Origin: a virus | Length of the DNA stretch: 22,345 nucleotides | Direction: 5' to 3' (one strand) | IMG/VR virus record: IMGVR_UViG_3300025168_014124 | Coordinates: 1-22,345 of that record | Shown: positions 5,212-18,843 of the stretch, piece after piece | How positions within the stretch are numbered: the first letter of the stretch is position 1 | Layout: every line of letters starts with the position of its first letter | Program-made: the position numbers and the translations under genes | The notes under the pieces: model-generated | The model's database searches: none | What the model saw: the letters and a program-made list of their open reading frames with translations, nothing else | Told to the model about the DNA's origin: nothing

Positions 5212-6168
5212 ATGGCCGCTATTGCACCTCCTGCGCTCGCTGGCGCGGTAAACACAGAAGTCGGTTTCACCCATACTTTTGCGCAGATCGCGATCCAGCG
5301 CCGTCTCGAAGACGCGCTGAACGTCGAGGCCGCTGGTCTCGTGCGCCTCGTCGGCGACGCTGCGGGCTCTGGCTCCGACGTGATCCGCGTGACCAACATT
5401 GGCGGAATCGGGTTTAATCTGCCGATGTCTGCGCTCGCTTCCGAGACCGCGGCGATCACTCCGAGCCCCTTCGATCTCGGTTACTCGACCGTGACGATCG
5501 CCGACTACGGCCTCGCCTTCGAGGAGTCGTACAAAGCCCAGATCCTCGGGCGTGAGCCCGCGGCTATGCTCGACGCGCTCGTCTCGACGATGCCCGAGAG
5601 CTACCTTCGCACCCTGCGCGATCTGACCGCCACCGTGATCGCGGGCTTCGCGACATCGGTGGGGGCTGCGGGCGCAAAGCTAACGATCGACACCTATCTG
5701 GACCTCCTCGCAGCGTACCGCGAGAACCCCGGTGCAGGTATGCCAGTGATCATGCTGCACCCGAAGCAGGTCTCAGACCTGATCGAGTCCGCACGGGCCG
5801 AGACGACGCTTTCGCTCTCCGTGTCCGAGTTCGGCAGCTTGAACGGCCTCTCGGGCGCGCAGACGATCCCCAACTTCCTGGGCCTCGGCGTCGACATCAA
5901 CATGTCGACCAGCATCACCAACGGTGGCGGAGGCCACATCGGCGGAGCTTACTCCGCTGGTGGTGTCGGCTACGCGGTCGGCTCGACTGCGGGCGTCAGG
6001 GCGCGAGGCATCGACGCGATCCGCATTCCGCAGTTCGGCACAATCGTCACGTTCCCGAGCGGCTCCAGCACCAACGGCAAGGAGACCGCCGAGGCGCGAT
6101 CCTTCGTCGGCGTCGCCGCGGGCAGCTCTGACGTGTTCGTTCAGCGCAAGGTCCTCAGCGTCATCTGA
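5212..6168 (+). CDS. Major capsid protein
   Basis: This 318-residue protein is the probable shell subunit, of HK97 fold by inference. It has no visible protease or delta domain, consistent with the separate scaffold gene. It is the highest-expressed candidate of the head genes: AGGAG lies eight bases before the ATG, behind a hairpin leader, and a strong hairpin follows the stop. The chain alternates short beta segments and helices (for example FDLGYSTVTIADYGLAFEE, about residues 84-102) and has few charged runs. The segment around 245-260 (NGGGGHIGGAYSAGGVG) is very Gly-rich. Size, position after the scaffold and regulatory setting support the call; no signature alone proves it. Confidence 0.82.
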   Translation: MAAIAPPALAGAVNTEVGFTHTFAQIAIQRRLEDALNVEAAGLVRLVGDAAGSGSDVIRVTNIGGIGFNLPMSALASETAAITPSPFDLGYSTVTIADYGLAFEESYKAQILGREPAAMLDALVSTMPESYLRTLRDLTATVIAGFATSVGAAGAKLTIDTYLDLLAAYRENPGAGMPVIMLHPKQVSDLIESARAETTLSLSVSEFGSLNGLSGAQTIPNFLGLGVDINMSTSITNGGGGHIGGAYSAGGVGYAVGSTAGVRARGIDAIRIPQFGTIVTFPSGSSTNGKETAEARSFVGVAAGSSDVFVQRKVLSVI

Positions 6169-6178
6169 TGACCCGACG

Positions 6179-6213
6179 CGCGCCCGGGCCGGCTCCTCGG
6201 CAGTCCGGGCGCG
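6179..6213 (+). terminator. Strong GC hairpin after the capsid gene
   Basis: CGCGCCCGG (6179-6187) pairs perfectly with CCGGGCGCG (6205-6213). Inside the loop, GCCG (6188-6191) can pair with CGGC (6198-6201), leaving a bulge. It starts 11 bases after the capsid stop. There is no U tract (TCTACACC follows), so it may be a partial terminator or a 3' stabiliser that sets capsid mRNA above the downstream genes. Confidence 0.5.
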
Positions 6214-6243
6214 TCTACACCCACCGAGGCAGAGAGACAGCAA

Positions 6244-6990
6244 ATGCCGATCCGAGCGAAGAAGACCGGACGATCCGCACCCGAGGACGCGCTCCTTACT
6301 GGCGACGTGCCCGAGACCGTAGACCCTGGACTCGCCGCACTCCTAGAGGACCCCGTCGATATGGGCCGATCCTCTGGGCTCCCGAAGCTGCACCCACGGG
6401 CGCCGTTTTTGCTGCGTCACTGGCCGATGAATTGGGAGATCGGAGAGGTCGACGGATCGGCTACTTGGTTACCTGCGGTGGACCTCCATTTCCTCGTGAA
6501 GGGCGCCGGAGGCATCCGCACGCCAGGACCTCACGAGCCCGAATCGAACGCCTACGCCGACGCCGTCCTCGAAGCCCGCCGCCGCGGGTGGGTCTACCTG
6601 CCTCTCTCTGCGTCCATTGCGACCGAGCACCTCCCAGCCGGAGTCCCTGCGGGCCGCTACCGTCGACGCATCCGAGGGCAGCACCCGATTACGCGCGTCG
6701 ATGTCGAGGCGTGGGTCACTCCGTGGGAGGTGCCTCAGCCCGGGCTACCCGGTCAGGCTCTCGCCTTCGCTCACGACACCGAGTCCCACAACCGCTGGCG
6801 AGCGTCGCTCGTCTCGTCGGGTCAGATCGCGCCACCGGTTCCGCAGGCTCGCCGCCAGGTGATCAGCACGATCGCGCGCCACCTCGGGCGCGCGCGAAAC
6901 TCGGGCGTATCGCCTGACGTAAAAGCGGTACGAGTCGAGGCTCTGACGGCCCGTCTCGCCGCCGCCAATGCTGCCCAGGTGCCAGCATGA
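6244..6990 (+). CDS. Hypothetical head protein after capsid
   Basis: This 248-residue protein is not recognised. It has an N-terminal basic segment (MPIRAKKTGR), a central region with many Trp, Pro and beta-like stretches (RHWPMNWEIGEVDGSATWLP, about residues 59-78), and a basic helical C-terminus rich in Arg and Ala. The ATG at 6244 has a purine-rich GAGGCAGAGAGA leader; a second long reading frame over the same DNA (6168-6917) is Arg/Pro-rich and is a shadow. Phages often carry a decoration, head-vertex or completion protein in this position. It overlaps the next gene by four bases (ATGA), so the two are probably translated together. Confidence 0.75.
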   Translation: MPIRAKKTGRSAPEDALLTGDVPETVDPGLAALLEDPVDMGRSSGLPKLHPRAPFLLRHWPMNWEIGEVDGSATWLPAVDLHFLVKGAGGIRTPGPHEPESNAYADAVLEARRRGWVYLPLSASIATEHLPAGVPAGRYRRRIRGQHPITRVDVEAWVTPWEVPQPGLPGQALAFAHDTESHNRWRASLVSSGQIAPPVPQARRQVISTIARHLGRARNSGVSPDVKAVRVEALTARLAAANAAQVPA

Positions 6991-8771: not shown

Positions 8772-9236
8772 ATGGCCCGTTTTACCTCACGTTTGACGAC
8801 TGTTAAGTTCATCGATGCCGCCGCCGACGAGATCGTCGCCGGTCCAGGTCCCGGGGACTTGAGCATCGGTGAAACCAACGCCGAGAACGCAGAGCGGATC
8901 CGCGTGCTTGACCGCGGCAGCTTCGATGGATTTGTCCTCGGCGACTCGCTAGAGCAGGACATATCGATCAGCCTGGAAGTGAAGAACGAGACCCTCACCG
9001 AAGCCAGCGCGGATCGGATCCGTGACTTCGTCATGAAGACCGGCAACTTTGCCGGAACGACCTCGGTAAACTCGACGATCTGGGCCTTCAAGGTCGTGGT
9101 TACTATGACCGACGGAACGAACACCGCAACGATCACGCTCCCCGTGGTTCAGGGCGGGGTCGACTTCACCGAAGGCAAGGAAGGATCTACGATGTCCTTC
9201 AGCGGCACCAACAACGGCACGATCGTCGTGACCTGA
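8772..9236 (+). CDS. Major tail (tube) protein
   Basis: This 154-residue protein is the probable subunit of the tail tube. It alternates beta strands and short helices, with strands such as WAFKVVVTMTDGTNTATITLP (two strands) near 97-117 and a C-terminal Gly/Ser/Thr-rich strand region ending in NNGTIVVT. The strong ribosome site, its place before the frameshifted chaperones and tape measure, and the 154-residue size all support the call. It starts MARFTSRLTTVKFID. Its stop overlaps the start of a 13-codon Lys-rich frame (TGATG). Confidence 0.8.
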   Translation: MARFTSRLTTVKFIDAAADEIVAGPGPGDLSIGETNAENAERIRVLDRGSFDGFVLGDSLEQDISISLEVKNETLTEASADRIRDFVMKTGNFAGTTSVNSTIWAFKVVVTMTDGTNTATITLPVVQGGVDFTEGKEGSTMSFSGTNNGTIVVT

Positions 9237-9277
9237 TGGCCTACAAGAAAAAGACCAAGAAGAAGGGCGGCAAGTAG
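9236..9277 (+). CDS. 13-residue Lys-rich peptide MAYKKKTKKKGGK
   Basis: A complete 14-codon frame starts on the tail tube stop (TGATG at 9234-9238) and ends TAG at 9275-9277. The peptide has seven lysines in 13 residues. It has no own ribosome site, so it would depend on coupling to the highly translated tube gene. From memory, very short Lys-rich frames occur at similar places in other phage late regions, which argues against chance. It may be a real peptide that binds nucleic acid or acidic proteins, or a translational spacer. Expression is unproven. Confidence 0.5.
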   Translation: MAYKKKTKKKGGK

Positions 9278-9295: not shown

Positions 9296-9700
9296 ATGAG
9301 CGAGCCGATCCGACTCGGAGGGACCGACCGACGGCCCTCCGTTCTACTCATCCCGATCCGCCTCCGACTGCGGGCCGCCTACGTCGCCGCCGAGGGCTCG
9401 TCAGACGACCTGATCGCCGTCTGTGGGGCCGTCCTCGGTCAGGCCCTACCCGATACCCTCGGGGAGAGTCCGAGCGTCCAGAGGCGAGCCCTACGCGCCG
9501 ACGCGGTCGACTACGGGGAAAGGGTCGTTGATGCCCTCCTCGGTCAGGGCGTCAAGGTGCCCGAGATCATCGAGGTCGGCTCGTCCGTTCTCCTCGAAGC
9601 TCTGCGCCAGCTACCGAAGGACGACGAGATCGAGGACGCCGCGGGAAACTCACCGGCCCGGGCGGAGACCTCCACGGAGTCTTCATCCGTCTCGGGCTGA
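9296..9700 (+). CDS. Tail assembly chaperone, short form
   Basis: This 134-residue protein takes the slot of lambda gpG: between tail tube and tape measure. Tail chaperones bind the tape measure before the tube polymerises and are not in the virion. The chain is helical (ADAVDYGERVVDALLGQGVK, two helices) with a disordered acidic Ser-rich tail (ETSTESSSVSG). AAGGAGA lies upstream of the ATG. The slippery heptamer GGGAAAC occurs 17 codons before the stop in the correct register, so a fraction of ribosomes should move to the -1 frame and make the long form. Confidence 0.8.
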   Translation: MSEPIRLGGTDRRPSVLLIPIRLRLRAAYVAAEGSSDDLIAVCGAVLGQALPDTLGESPSVQRRALRADAVDYGERVVDALLGQGVKVPEIIEVGSSVLLEALRQLPKDDEIEDAAGNSPARAETSTESSSVSG

Positions 9701-9870
9701 CTCACTACGGGGACCCCATGGCTTTGTATAGACTCGGCGAGACTGACCGCGAGGCCCTCGTGGTCCTCCTCGGCTACGAGCTCCACGAGAGCCGTCAGAG
9801 GACGCGCCAGAGCCAGCCGATCAAGCACGCGTCAGGGCGCCTCGAAGCCCTCGACCGGTTCCAGGTCTGA
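9296..9870 (+). CDS. Tail assembly chaperone, -1 frameshift long form (gpG-T type)
   Basis: Slippage at GGGAAAC (9643-9649) joins codons 9296-9649 to the -1 frame from 9649 to the stop at 9868-9870. The product is 191 residues: 118 from the first frame and 73 from the second. The second frame stays open from the slip site onward and reads LTGPGGDLHGVFIRLGLTHY, then GDPMALYRLGETDREAL, with no stop until 9868, which looks like true protein upstream of the ATG at 9718. An independent 50-residue gene from 9718 is possible but lacks a good ribosome site. G/G-T frameshifting is conserved among long-tailed phages. Confidence 0.75.
9643..9649 (+). promoter_or_regulatory. Programmed -1 frameshift slippery site GGGAAAC
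   Basis: In the chaperone frame the bases read GCG GGA AAC, which is X-XXY-YYZ with X=G, Y=A, Z=C. After slipping by one base, the tRNAs pair with GGG and AAA. I see no convincing downstream pseudoknot, only short self-complementary stretches. Confidence 0.8.
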
Positions 9871-9872
9871 TC

Positions 9873-10562
9873 ATGGCCCTCTCGGAGTTCTTCCATCGCC
9901 AGATGCCGAGGTCGCGCCCGAGCCAGAAGGCTGTCAAAAAGATGGGCCGCTGGAGCCGGCGCGGACATCATTACATGAAGTACACCGGAGGGCTCCGAGA
10001 CTCGGATCTCGTTCTCCCGGATCCGCAGCTAGAGAAGAAGATTTTCCAGCTCATCGAGCAAGCCTACCCACTGATCGCGCAGTCCTTCGACCGGCACCTC
10101 GGGCCGATGGCTAATCACATGTTTAAAACTTGGCCATACGAGACCGGCCTCTCGCTCGGGCTCCTCGGCTTCGAGTGGGAGGTCACCGACACGAGCCTCG
10201 GCGGGTCTATCGTCTGCCGGGCGCCCTATGCCTATTTCATCCGAGAGGGCCGCAAAGGCAAAAAGCGAGGCCGCAAGATCGCGCGAGAGCTGACACCGGG
10301 CGAGCTCGCGATCACTGCGAAACCACCGCGCGGCGTGTCTCGCGACGAGTGGCGGCAGGCCATGATCACCGCCTCGCGTCAAGTCGACCTTGTAGACTAC
10401 GCATACGCCAAAGGCGTGCTCAGTAGGATCAAGGGCGCGCAAAAGAAACGGCGCGCGCCTCGCAAGGGGCGCCGAGTCGTCGACGCTCTCGTCTTCGATC
10501 CCGGAAAAGTCGCCGCGGGCGCTATCTATGACGACATTTTGAAGGGTCTGGGGGGCGCGTGA
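9873..10562 (+). CDS. Putative HK97 gp10-like tail completion protein
   Basis: This 229-residue basic protein lies between chaperones and tape measure. The middle (about residues 60-130) shows a helix (QLIEQAYPLIAQSFDRHL), then TWPYETGLSLGLLGFEWEV, and GSIVCRAPYAYFIREGRKGK. A TG-x-S/L...strand...APYAxFIREG order is what I expect of HK97 gp10-like neck proteins, which are usually shorter (about 110-150) and lie earlier in the operon. The extra N-terminal basic region (SRPSQKAVKKMGRWSRRGHH) and the Lys/Arg-rich segment QKKRRAPRKGRR are additions. The start is two bases after the chaperone stop. Confidence 0.55.
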   Translation: MALSEFFHRQMPRSRPSQKAVKKMGRWSRRGHHYMKYTGGLRDSDLVLPDPQLEKKIFQLIEQAYPLIAQSFDRHLGPMANHMFKTWPYETGLSLGLLGFEWEVTDTSLGGSIVCRAPYAYFIREGRKGKKRGRKIARELTPGELAITAKPPRGVSRDEWRQAMITASRQVDLVDYAYAKGVLSRIKGAQKKRRAPRKGRRVVDALVFDPGKVAAGAIYDDILKGLGGA

Positions 10563-12943
10563 GCACTGTTAAGCGTGACATCTCGATGAGCATCATCGCC
10601 GACACTCGGCGATATCAGGCCGAGATGGCCAAGATCCCAGGCATGACCGACAAGGCCGCCGCAAAAGCTGCGGAACGGATGGTCAAACAGGAGCAGAAGC
10701 GGATCTCGACTGAAGAGAAACTTCGGAAGAAGGCCGCAAAAGACCAGGAGACTCTCGCAAAAGACACCGCGAGCAAAACCGCCGCCGCGATGAAGGGCGC
10801 CGCGACTGCGATCGCCGCAGGCTTCACCGCCGCCGCCGCTGCGGGTGTCGGCTTGATCACCCTCGGTCAGGACATTGCCGACACTCGCAACGAACTGACC
10901 GACCTGTCAGTCGAGACGGGCATCAGCGCCGACACTCTCGCCGCTCTGCGCTTCGGAGCTCAGGCCACCGGAAAAGAGCTGGGCGACGTAGCGGGCGCGA
11001 TGGCTGCGTTCTCTCAGCGCATGGTCGCCGCAAATCGCGACGGCGGGACGCTGGCGATGATCTTCGACGGCTTGAACATCGAGCTTGAGAACGTCGACGG
11101 CACGATGAGAGGGACCGACGAGGTATTCCGGGAGACGATCAAGACGCTCTCTTCAGTCGAGAGCAAGACGCTACGCAATGCCGCCGCAGCAGACCTCTTC
11201 GGGGACGCGGGCGGGAAGCTGATCAACATCACCAAGACCCTCGGCGGCGACCTCGACCTCTACGCGGACGCGGTGGACACGGTCGGCCTAAGCATGGACG
11301 AGGGCGCGCAGGAGTCCGAAGACTTTCAACGCGCAATGGCGACCCTCGGTCTGATTATGGACGGCATCAAGGGGACCGTCGGGCCGCTCGCTCTGGCGTT
11401 CTCGAAGGGCCTCGCCGCTTCGCTGATGCTTACGAAAGTGACGGCAATGCTCGCCCATAGCGGACTTGTCGGGTATGCCGCGGTCTTTTTGAAGATTAAA
11501 GACGGCATTGAAAAAGGAGCGATCCCAAGTCTTAAAGAGCTTGAGACCACGATGCGCGAGAGCGTCGAGCACTCCAACAAGGCGATCAAGAAGGAGGTCG
11601 ACGCGTTTCGGGTCTTGATCGGAGCCGTAAAGACCACAGGCGACGAAGTCGGAAACTTAGAGGGGCTCCTCGAACAGCTATCGCGGAGCAAGAACAAGGA
11701 CGCAAAAGCAACCGCCGCCGCCTCTTCCGCCGAGAAGACCGCCGCCGACGTAGCGAAGCAACTCACAAAGGCCCGGCGCGACGCGCTCGATCCACAAGTT
11801 CGATTGGTTCAAGCGTTCACTCAGGAACGACGTCAGCTCCTCGGGCTCGTCGACGCGGGCGCCGACGCTGCACAGGTTCAAGAACTGATCGCGCTGAAGA
11901 GCGCCGCAATGGAAAAGCAGTTCCAAAAAGCAGGGGTCGAGCTAGAGAAAAAGAGACTGGAGGAAATGGCAAAGGCCGGCGAGGTCGCGCAGAAGGTGTC
12001 CGACGAACTGACCCAAGCCAAGATCGACCAGCTAGAGCCGACGGCGCGTCTCACCGCCGAGCATGAGCGCGAGGTAGCCGCGCTAGAGGCCACGATCGCA
12101 AAGGGCGCCGACGCCGCGCAGGTCGCCGAGCTCCAGGCAATTAAGGCCGCGGAGCTACAGAAGGCGATCTCCAACATCGAGTTTGAAGAGTACCAGAAAA
12201 AGCAGGACGAGACGAAAGAGAAGAACAAAGAACTTGCCGTCAGTTTTGCGAACCTGATCGACAACATGGGCCAGAACCTCGGGATCGCTGCGGGCTTCGC
12301 GGAGCTTGCTCTCGACGACTACTCCAACAAGGCGACGAAGGCCGCGAGCCGCTCCGACAAGCTACGGAGCAAGATCAAAGACCTTCGAAAGAGCATGACC
12401 GACGCGAGCAAAGAGGAGCGCGCCGAGATTGCCAGCACGATCGAAGACAAAGAAGACGAACTAGAGCAAGCGGAAAAGCGGAAGAAGAGACAGAGCAAAC
12501 TCGCGCGTCAAGCGTTCCGAGAAGTCAAGGCGCTGCGGATCGCCGAGACGACGATCTCGGGCGCCGCCGCTGCGATCCGGGCGGTCGCCGAACTGGGCTT
12601 TATTGGAGGGGCCGGTCTGATCGCCGCGGGGGGTATCGCTGCGACGACCGCGCTCAATATTGCCACGATCAAGCGGCAGAAGGCGCCGAAATTCCACCAA
12701 GGCGGAATGGTCGAGCCGGACGAGACACCGGCGATCCTCCGACGCGGTGAGGCCGTCCTCTCGGAGCGCGCAACCCAGCGTCTCGGGCGTCAGACGATCG
12801 AGCGGCTCAACCGAGACGAGCCTCTCGGGGCCGTGAATATCTACCTCGGGGACGACCTCCTGCGGTCCCAACGGCTGACACGGGCGCCGCGGGGTGGTAC
12901 TCATACAGCGGTCGGGGCGCGTAGTCCCTACCTCGGGCGCTAG
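10559..12943 (+). CDS. Tape measure protein
   Basis: The tape measure sets tail length and is ejected with the DNA. This 794-residue protein is the standard type: long helical stretches, few aromatics, an Ala-rich hydrophobic segment near 79-102 (AATAIAAGFTAAAAAGVGL), another near 671-705 (AAIRAVAELGFIGGAGLIAA) and a C-terminus with FHQGGMVEPDETPAILR (712-728) and GEAVLS (730-735), typical for tape measures. Residues about 402-455 and 484-537 are an internal repeat with 23 identities in 54 aligned positions. GTG start overlaps the previous stop (GTGA). A ratio of about 0.15 nm per residue predicts a tail near 120 nm. Confidence 0.9.
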   Translation: MSTVKRDISMSIIADTRRYQAEMAKIPGMTDKAAAKAAERMVKQEQKRISTEEKLRKKAAKDQETLAKDTASKTAAAMKGAATAIAAGFTAAAAAGVGLITLGQDIADTRNELTDLSVETGISADTLAALRFGAQATGKELGDVAGAMAAFSQRMVAANRDGGTLAMIFDGLNIELENVDGTMRGTDEVFRETIKTLSSVESKTLRNAAAADLFGDAGGKLINITKTLGGDLDLYADAVDTVGLSMDEGAQESEDFQRAMATLGLIMDGIKGTVGPLALAFSKGLAASLMLTKVTAMLAHSGLVGYAAVFLKIKDGIEKGAIPSLKELETTMRESVEHSNKAIKKEVDAFRVLIGAVKTTGDEVGNLEGLLEQLSRSKNKDAKATAAASSAEKTAADVAKQLTKARRDALDPQVRLVQAFTQERRQLLGLVDAGADAAQVQELIALKSAAMEKQFQKAGVELEKKRLEEMAKAGEVAQKVSDELTQAKIDQLEPTARLTAEHEREVAALEATIAKGADAAQVAELQAIKAAELQKAISNIEFEEYQKKQDETKEKNKELAVSFANLIDNMGQNLGIAAGFAELALDDYSNKATKAASRSDKLRSKIKDLRKSMTDASKEERAEIASTIEDKEDELEQAEKRKKRQSKLARQAFREVKALRIAETTISGAAAAIRAVAELGFIGGAGLIAAGGIAATTALNIATIKRQKAPKFHQGGMVEPDETPAILRRGEAVLSERATQRLGRQTIERLNRDEPLGAVNIYLGDDLLRSQRLTRAPRGGTHTAVGARSPYLGR

Positions 12944-17776: not shown

Positions 17777-18091
17777 ATGGCGACGACACTCACGATCGGA
17801 GAGCCGAAGCGGATCTCTCTCGGCACGACGACCGAGGCCGTCACGATCCCGAGAAACGCGCTCTATCTGCGGATCGAGGCTCTCGCGCATGACGTGGTCT
17901 TTGCCGTTACAGGCTCCGACGGTGGCGCATTAGCGGCGCACTATGAGACGTATCCGCAAAAGGCTATCTATATGCGATCCGTGCCCGGGACCGCTGGCAA
18001 GGCTCGACCCGACGCCGATCAGGTCGTCTTTATTGCGGTCGCTTCGGGCTCTGGCTCTGTCGCCCTGACCGCCATGCACGAGGGCGCCTAA
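17777..18091 (+). CDS. Small beta-rich tail protein
   Basis: This 104-residue protein has an AGGAG ribosome site (the stop codon region of the hub gene) and starts MATTLTIGEPKRISLGTT. It alternates strands throughout: AVTIPRNALYLRIEAL, DVVFAVTGSD, QVVFIAVASGSGSVALTAM. No catalytic motif is seen. It resembles small tail-tip or fibre-attachment proteins in size and makeup. The next gene begins on its stop (TAATG), so the two are coupled and may be partners. Confidence 0.6.
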   Translation: MATTLTIGEPKRISLGTTTEAVTIPRNALYLRIEALAHDVVFAVTGSDGGALAAHYETYPQKAIYMRSVPGTAGKARPDADQVVFIAVASGSGSVALTAMHEGA

Positions 18092-18843
18092 TGCCGGCCC
18101 CGATGTCGAGCGCCGGTCCTGGGACCGGTGGCGGTGGTCCGCAATGGGCGACTCTGGCGACGGTTGACTTTGCCGCCGCGGGCGCTGCTGACTGGACGGG
18201 AAACGGGACTTTTGCCGTCGACGGTGTCGATCACGACGTGACCAACGGCAACAAGTGCTCGACACTCGGGCCGGACGGGTCCACCGGTCTGGTCTGGGTG
18301 CAGACCTCGACCGGCGTGTATCCGACGAGCAGTCCTCCGATCGTGTCGGTAGATTTGGCCGATTTTGCCGCGATCGAAGACGGCGGAGAGATCGCGATCG
18401 ACGTCAGATACACCATGGGCGCGGCGCCGGGAAACAACGCCCGACTCAGCGGGGCGCTTTACTCCTCGAACACCCGGCTTGCCGCGTGCGGTCCTCGGTA
18501 CCAGTCAAGCCCGGGCGCCTGGGAGTATGGCGCCTTTACCGCCGGTAACAAGTTCAGCGACCACGGGACCGCACTTGCGACGACGACCGACGCCGTGATG
18601 ACGTTCATCTTCTCGACGAAGGGGCTCCGGTGGTGGGATCGTGGCGCCTTCGGATCGGGCTACCCCGACGCCCCGGGAGCCGCCGACCTCGACGACGCGG
18701 TCGGGGTCGACATCGGATCGGGGGAGTCGTCAATCATACCGGCGATCTCTTCGGCTCTGTTCCAGCTTTCCACCCAACGAAACAGCGGAACCACGACCTT
18801 AACGGTCCACGGCTACCGTTTGCGATACCGGAGTCCGTCGTGA
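18091..18843 (+). CDS. Putative tail adhesin, lectin-like
   Basis: This 250-residue protein starts with a Pro/Gly/Ser-rich flexible lead (MPAPMSSAGPGTGGGGPQW) and continues as a beta-rich globular domain with many Gly, Ser, Thr, Asp and aromatic residues (VDFAAAGAADWTGNGTFAVD; KGLRWWDRGAFGSGYPD). The makeup and place after the hub suggest a receptor-binding tip or fibre. A jelly-roll or concanavalin-type sandwich is likely but cannot be proven by reading. The next gene's GTG overlaps its stop. Confidence 0.55.
   Translation: MPAPMSSAGPGTGGGGPQWATLATVDFAAAGAADWTGNGTFAVDGVDHDVTNGNKCSTLGPDGSTGLVWVQTSTGVYPTSSPPIVSVDLADFAAIEDGGEIAIDVRYTMGAAPGNNARLSGALYSSNTRLAACGPRYQSSPGAWEYGAFTAGNKFSDHGTALATTTDAVMTFIFSTKGLRWWDRGAFGSGYPDAPGAADLDDAVGVDIGSGESSIIPAISSALFQLSTQRNSGTTTLTVHGYRLRYRSPS

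Follow-up and report, generated by a model that had tools for sequence, protein, structure and literature searches.

Organisation of the tail module

The window, by which we mean the whole stretch of DNA analysed here, is a 22,345-base IMG/VR virus record from an uncultured phage. A G-like gene with a slippery heptamer near its 3' end, continued in the -1 frame by a T-like extension, lies between a probable tail tube gene and one intervening gene that precedes the gene for the tape measure protein (Table 1).

Table 1. Features at the G/T locus and its neighbours, in window coordinates
Feature	Position	Strand	Basis
Probable tail tube (major tail) protein gene, 154 aa	8772..9236	+	AF2 model (pLDDT only 61) matches BFVD tail tube proteins
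G-like gene, putative tail assembly chaperone, 134-aa short product	9296..9700	+	ORF; relatives in 11 other viral contigs; AF2 model pLDDT 85; weak BFVD match to tail assembly chaperones
Candidate Shine-Dalgarno-like stimulator (TCGAGGACG), upstream of the slip site	9630..9638	+	Anti-SD duplex -5.9 kcal/mol
Slippery heptamer G_GGA_AAC in X_XXY_YYZ register	9643..9649	+	GGGAAAC in L002, L004 and L005; GGGAAAT in L003
T-like extension in the -1 frame (73 codons past the shift; TGA stop at 9868-9870)	9649..9870	+	Open frame; -1-frame conservation over six lineages
Candidate stimulatory RNA hairpin, beginning 4 nt past the heptamer	9654..9699	+	MFE -30.2 kcal/mol, z -1.99
Intervening gene between T and the tape measure gene	9873..10562	+	Could be aligned across the seven sequences given, at 18-50% identity to that of the window
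Tape measure protein gene	10559..12943	+	PHROGs tail length tape measure families, best so named E 2.9e-12

The model of the tail tube candidate gave 11 BFVD matches at E <= 0.001, including the tail tube protein of Halogranum tailed virus 1 (E 5.2e-4); the same protein had no match in PHROGs, and in Pfam it had only a sub-cut-off match to DUF5006. The protein of the intervening gene, also without a PHROGs match, has a conserved WPxxTGLSxSLL...APYAxFI core, which we take to resemble HK97 gp10-like proteins. The same gene order can be read in two of the related viral contigs described below (L010 and L011), and a further three (L015, L017 and L022) contain the tail tube gene, G, T and the intervening gene. 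L024 has ORFs at the corresponding places, identified by position with the neighbours unaligned.

The gap between the tail tube gene and G holds a tiny, very lysine-rich ORF (9236-9277, + strand; MAYKKKTKKKGGK) that overlaps the stop of the tail tube gene. Lysine-rich ORFs occur in this gap elsewhere too, as MAYQKKKTKKKGGK in L002, MPYHKKKTKKKGGK in L003, a version readable from a GTG in L004 and L005, and a 29-aa version in L015, and both position and composition are conserved in these six sequences, the window included. There is no space for such an ORF in L010 and L017, where the tail tube gene overlaps G. Upstream of the module, two ORFs of about 250 codons (6168-6917 and 6244-6990, + strand) overlap in different frames, and the second looks like the real gene.

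Slip site and reading frames

Counted from the ORF start at 9296, the zero-frame codons at the heptamer are GGA (9644-9646) and AAC (9647-9649), and the latter is the 17th codon before the stop of G (TGA, 9698-9700). A preliminary description, made from the letters of the window alone, had placed GGGAAAC in exact register at this distance from the stop of a 134-residue protein and had described the -1 frame as open through 9867, and we find both to be correct, the frame being open from 9532 up to its stop. After a tandem slip at the heptamer, residues 1-118 of G would be followed by 73 residues read in the -1 frame, giving a product of 191 aa with a computed mass of 20.7 kDa beside the unshifted product of 14.0 kDa (also computed), and the predicted junction peptide of the fusion is ...EDAAGNLTGPGG.... 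Within 9532-9720 the -1 frame contains a single ATG, GTG or TTG, namely ATG 9718, which gives a 50-codon ORF ending at 9870. A standard gene caller would therefore report this 50-aa ORF as a separate gene, as the preliminary description had anticipated.

In-register X_XXY_YYZ heptamers (Y = A or T) occur at four places in the 5891 codons of the window's 18 predicted genes, and when the codons of G were shuffled, a canonical heptamer appeared anywhere in the gene in 1.5% of 20,000 shuffles. Two of the other three heptamers are also GGGAAAC. They lie at 18198 and 18429, both in the ORF 18091-18843 (+ strand), and are followed by -1 frames that are open for 116 and 39 codons, to 18545, and that encode arginine-rich sequence; the -1 product there looks like a chance frame. 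Since these two heptamers also have open -1 frames behind them, register and openness alone do not decide whether a frameshift occurs and the heptamer by itself is insufficient. On the sequences at hand, the claim of a frameshift is carried by the comparison with relatives.

Junctions in related contigs

Including the window, 13 distinct contigs were compared, the other 12 being uncultured viral contigs, of which the distant ones were reached through searches with the tape measure, tail tube and G proteins. Relatives of G were present in 11 of the 12, and each of these 11 continues into a T extension in the -1 frame, so that with the window 12 of 13 contigs have the extension. The exception, L021 (3477-4565), is a relative by its tail tube protein and has a 189-aa ORF where G would be expected. 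This ORF has no BLASTP similarity to G, no T is recognisable, and the intervening gene begins at a GTG right behind the ORF's stop; in L021, G and T have either been lost or replaced, or have greatly diverged.

Four contigs (L002-L005) are close relatives, with G proteins 83-84% identical to that of the window. The preliminary description had expected the heptamer to be conserved in relatives, and in this clade the expectation holds, three contigs having GGGAAAC and the fourth GGGAAAT; beyond the clade, the wider family does not keep the heptamer. In all four the -1 frame is free of stops up to the common end of T. Among the five sequences of the clade, both of the variable columns between the zero-frame stop and ATG 9718 are third positions of the -1 frame, which agrees with -1-frame coding on the small number of two columns.

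Outside the close clade the junction reads AAATTTT, GGATTTT, GAATTTTT, AGATTTTTTA or TTTTTTT, and the -1 outcome is unchanged. L010 has the canonical A_AAT_TTT, one codon nearer T. L011 and L017 have G_GAT_TTT and L015 and L016 have G_AAT_TTT followed by T (GAATTTTT), both non-canonical. In L022, A_GAT_TTT followed by TTA contains U_UUU_UUA (TTTTTTA) one codon downstream of the aligned place, and L024 has U_UUU_UUU; these two are canonical. A canonical in-register X_XXY_YYZ heptamer is thus found at 8 of 12 junctions (the five GGGAAAC/T sites, L010, L022 and L024) and is absent from the other four. In L024 the T7 run comes immediately after a -1-frame stop, and codon 68 of 84 is the sole ATG, GTG or TTG in the T frame, so that the slip is tightly bracketed; the extension, only 10% identical to the window's T, is called T by its place and frame.

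In L010, L011, L015 and L017, whose loci are 60-71% G+C, the junction holds the sole in-frame (G/A)AT-TTT pair in the genes counted. Away from the junction such pairs number one in the window, four in L022 (five in all) and one in L024 (two in all). In L011, TTT serves for just 2 of 49 phenylalanine codons, one of them at the junction. In these four GC-rich contigs it looks as if the UUU codon has been retained for slipping. Judged from the aligned sequences, the place and direction of the frame change appear to be conserved more widely than the heptamer, the slippery letters varying by lineage.

Conservation of the -1 frame upstream of ATG 9718

We compared all three frames by sum-of-pairs BLOSUM62 scores in six representatives (the window, L010, L011, L015, L017 and L022), over the span that begins at the slip site and ends with the residue preceding M26 of T, which corresponds to ATG 9718. 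Omitted were L024, for the low identity of its T, L016, whose G and T proteins are identical to those of L015, L002-L005, which belong to the window's clade, and L021, which has no T. Over T residues 3-25 the sum of pairs was 773 in the -1 frame, 130 in the zero frame and 144 in the +1 frame, with 15 of 15 pairs positive in the -1 frame and 9 and 8 of 15 in the other two; the zero and +1 frames also beat nearly all of their own shuffles, and what matters is how large the gap between the frames is. For residues 19-25, which lie past the window's zero-frame stop, the scores were 316 (-1), 18 (0) and -7 (+1), and all 15 pairs were again positive in the -1 frame. The conserved T signature resembles GPGGxLHxxxxRLGLxHYGDP. 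The preliminary description had noted protein-like content in the -1 frame of the window ahead of any start codon, and over the six lineages this frame is by far the best conserved of the three upstream of ATG 9718.

Candidate stimulators

Upstream of the slip site, anti-Shine-Dalgarno complementarity ranks among the strongest 0.3-15.8% of in-gene positions in all of eight sequences (two of them from one clade), a test in which the range of gaps, 4-14 nt, was our own choice and the upstream stretch is rich in Glu and Asp codons. The window's own tract is at the weak end of this range, 15.8% of in-gene positions being at least as strong, and several relatives have stronger tracts. This is only suggestive of a Shine-Dalgarno-like stimulator, and the tract could arise from the acidic stretch that it encodes (DEIEDA and variants), with protein constraint as the explanation.

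Downstream of the slip site, the z-scores of the hairpin ranged from -2.75 to +1.19 in the seven relatives that were folded, L024 not being among them. An alignment-wide helix was paired in 83.8% of cells, a value reached by none of 500 shuffles, the helix having been derived from the same alignment. Two-sided changes were present in three of its nine pairs, a count reached by 11 of 500 shuffles and equalled by a control slid by -1, and the covariation term of the consensus helix was unfavourable. Neither the hairpin nor the Shine-Dalgarno-like candidate is consistently strong across the sequences.

Structure and family of G

An AF2 model of G, built from ten sequences, is mostly helical with a pLDDT of 85.2. 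Block means are at least 82 up to residue 110, 58 over residues 111-120 and below 50 from residue 121, and the last helix spans residues 109-117. As the last helix ends at residue 117 and confidence is very low from 121, the slip at codons 117-118 would come directly behind the folded core, and on the model the end of that core may be a place where an extension can be appended. The top match to G among the viral models of BFVD (Foldseek) was a tail assembly chaperone, a weak match with E 0.14, probability 0.95 and TM 0.43/0.53. Against the PDB there was nothing at E <= 0.001 with Foldseek and nothing at Z 5 or more, and no tail chaperone was among the matches listed.

G had no informative match in Pfam, PHROGs or NCBIfam, the weak ones being phrog_36820, of unknown function (E 0.0096), SecD-TM1 (E 0.16) and, for one member, an NsrR model (E 0.098). 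T had no match in Pfam or PHROGs, and a tblastn search of 50,697 phage records with G and T found nothing at E 1. Profiles of the tail tube and tape measure proteins found no relative among the genome contigs searched, and for this reason we propose no host. The putative identity of G as a tail chaperone draws on synteny, on the tail tube and tape measure neighbours and on the weak fold match, with no family match to add to these.

Interpretation of the locus and alternative explanations

In agreement with the preliminary description, which had proposed a programmed -1 frameshift in tail chaperone genes, the -1 extensions of the relatives, the conservation of the -1 frame and the synteny argue that the locus is very probably a lambda-type G/GT tail assembly chaperone gene with programmed -1 ribosomal frameshifting. 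On this explanation most ribosomes would read 9296-9700 and release the 134-aa G protein, and a minority, with tRNAs on GGA and AAC, would slip back one base to GGG and AAA and go on in the -1 frame to 9867, giving the 191-aa G-T protein. By analogy with phage lambda, the G part would bind the tape measure protein and the T part would recruit the tail tube protein, and a low ratio of GT to G would matter in tail assembly. We infer the ribosomal slippage, its efficiency and the chaperone function. Several observations count against this explanation, namely the lack of a recognisable G and T in L021, the low identity of T in L024, an overlap of start and stop codons in L011, the four non-canonical sites among 12 and the (G/A)AT-TTT pairs away from the junction in the window, L022 and L024. 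The want of informative family matches for G and T and of a PDB match for G, and the uneven strength of the candidate stimulators, also weigh against it.

Another way to view T is as a separate 50-aa gene, translated from ATG 9718 with the aid of the GGGGA found 4 nt upstream of it, and with no frameshift at all. An ATG is present at the homologous place in the five close-clade sequences and in L010, and L017 has a TTG there. In L011 (3340-3382), the G stop and an ATG at T residue 14 share bases as ATGA, and translational coupling or re-initiation could act there in addition to a -1 shift at GGATTTT or in its place. Against a separate gene, L011 and L015 have CTC at the homologous codon, and L022 has TTT. 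With codon 26 so varied, independent initiation at this codon is not generally conserved. Moreover, between the slip site and position 26 the T frames of L015 and L022 contain no ATG, GTG or TTG, L024 has no start before its codon 68, and over the 23 T residues that precede 9718 conservation in the -1 frame far exceeds that in either of the other frames. We rejected a separate gene at 9718 on the three-frame comparison and regard it as improbable; a product starting only at 9718, which the preliminary description had named as an outcome that would speak against a frameshift, is contradicted both by the upstream conservation and by the codons found at position 26 in relatives.

The frame could also change by transcriptional rather than ribosomal slippage, on homopolymer runs such as the T7 of L024 and the T6 of L022 at the junction. 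However, no run is longer than three in the GGGAAAC/T of the window and its clade, and this is a heptamer of the tandem-tRNA ribosomal type in the available part of a review (PMC5009743). Transcriptional slippage is very unlikely as the general explanation, and is possible for L024 and L022 alone. Finally, the heptamer and the open -1 frame might have come together by coincidence, given that non-coding frames are often open in a GC-rich genome and that the two other GGGAAAC sites described above are likewise in register with open -1 frames. The -1 frame is, however, by far the best conserved across six lineages, the extension is present in nearly all of the contigs and most junctions carry a canonical heptamer, and we give coincidence scarcely any credence.

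Programmed frameshifting remains our preferred explanation. We lean towards a single homologous family in which the position and direction of the shift are fixed and the slippery sequence has been repeatedly replaced (G_GGA_AAC/U, A_AAU_UUU, G_GAU_UUU, G_AAU_UUU, U_UUU_UUA and U_UUU_UUU). In some GC-rich lineages the shift would rely on a non-canonical (G/A)AU-UUU, at which only the UUU tRNA re-pairs perfectly, perhaps aided by the Shine-Dalgarno-like tract of the conserved acidic stretch. The differing slippery sites at one junction are a natural experiment on what -1 frameshifting tolerates, and if the junction is indeed fixed and its letters replaced, they would form a series from which one could learn which slippery sites can stand in for one another. 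We consider this combination of a fixed junction and changing slippery letters to be the most useful aspect of the finding.

Comparison with known frameshift systems

In phage lambda the heptamer is G_GGA_AAG, and the tail tube gene is followed by G and, by a -1 slip, T, upstream of the tape measure gene. In the G/GT class, GT is made at a low ratio to G, both proteins bind the tape measure and tail tube proteins, and neither is present in the virion. The window is similar in having the tail tube-G-T order ahead of the tape measure gene, a two-tRNA heptamer near the 3' end of G and a T that has no generally conserved start of its own. It differs in that its heptamer ends in C rather than G, one gene intervenes before the tape measure gene, and its G has no informative Pfam, PHROGs or NCBIfam match. 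In the account of lambda given in the sections available of PMC5009743, a low-level -1 shift yields gpGT beside gpG; the G portion engages the tape measure protein, the T portion the tail tube protein, and the G/GT class of frameshift is described as widely conserved despite low sequence similarity. The mechanism has thus been known since lambda, and what is new here is a member in an uncultured group for which no cultured relative was found. For such a group the better gene model is a 191-aa G-T fusion and not a 50-aa orphan, which helps to annotate the tail module of phages whose G gene the searched family libraries do not recognise.

A further parallel is Burkholderia phage KL1, for whose gp18/gp19 pair the accessible portion of the paper predicts the site GGGAAAC and has one tail gene separating this pair from the tape measure gene, an arrangement that it also gives for HK97, SPP1 and others (PMC3483164). 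The window shares both the heptamer and the single intervening gene, a likeness for which we claim no sequence relation, and differs in that the KL1 site is described there as immediately upstream of the stop whereas that of the window is 17 codons before it. The same site as in the window, G_GGA_AAC, is also given for the g-t shift of the haloarchaeal virus HCTV-1 (PMC5009743) and of Caulobacter phage Colossus (PMC3556154), in the excerpts available of those papers; these belong to other phage lineages, and the window contig has no assigned host. The same excerpts report that related phages differ in the heptamer at the same gene, as among HCTV-1, HCTV-2 and HCTV-5 and between phiCbK and Colossus (PMC5009743, PMC3556154).

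The letters of one of the non-canonical junctions are on record as a slippery site as well. According to the extracts available, G_GA forms the first codon in some umbraviruses and dianthoviruses, in many insect-specific flaviviruses and in mesoniviruses (PMC5009743), and G_GAU_UUU is a frameshift site in a mycovirus (PMC11050907). The latter has the same letters as the GGATTTT of L011 and L017, not those of the window, and in the eukaryotic RNA viruses it serves a viral polymerase, in contrast to the phage tail gene of L011 and L017. In the phage set of PRFect, as far as the available text of that paper describes it, most annotated frameshift overlaps lack the canonical motif, and further motif classes are named, including 'twoonefour' (PMC10885494).
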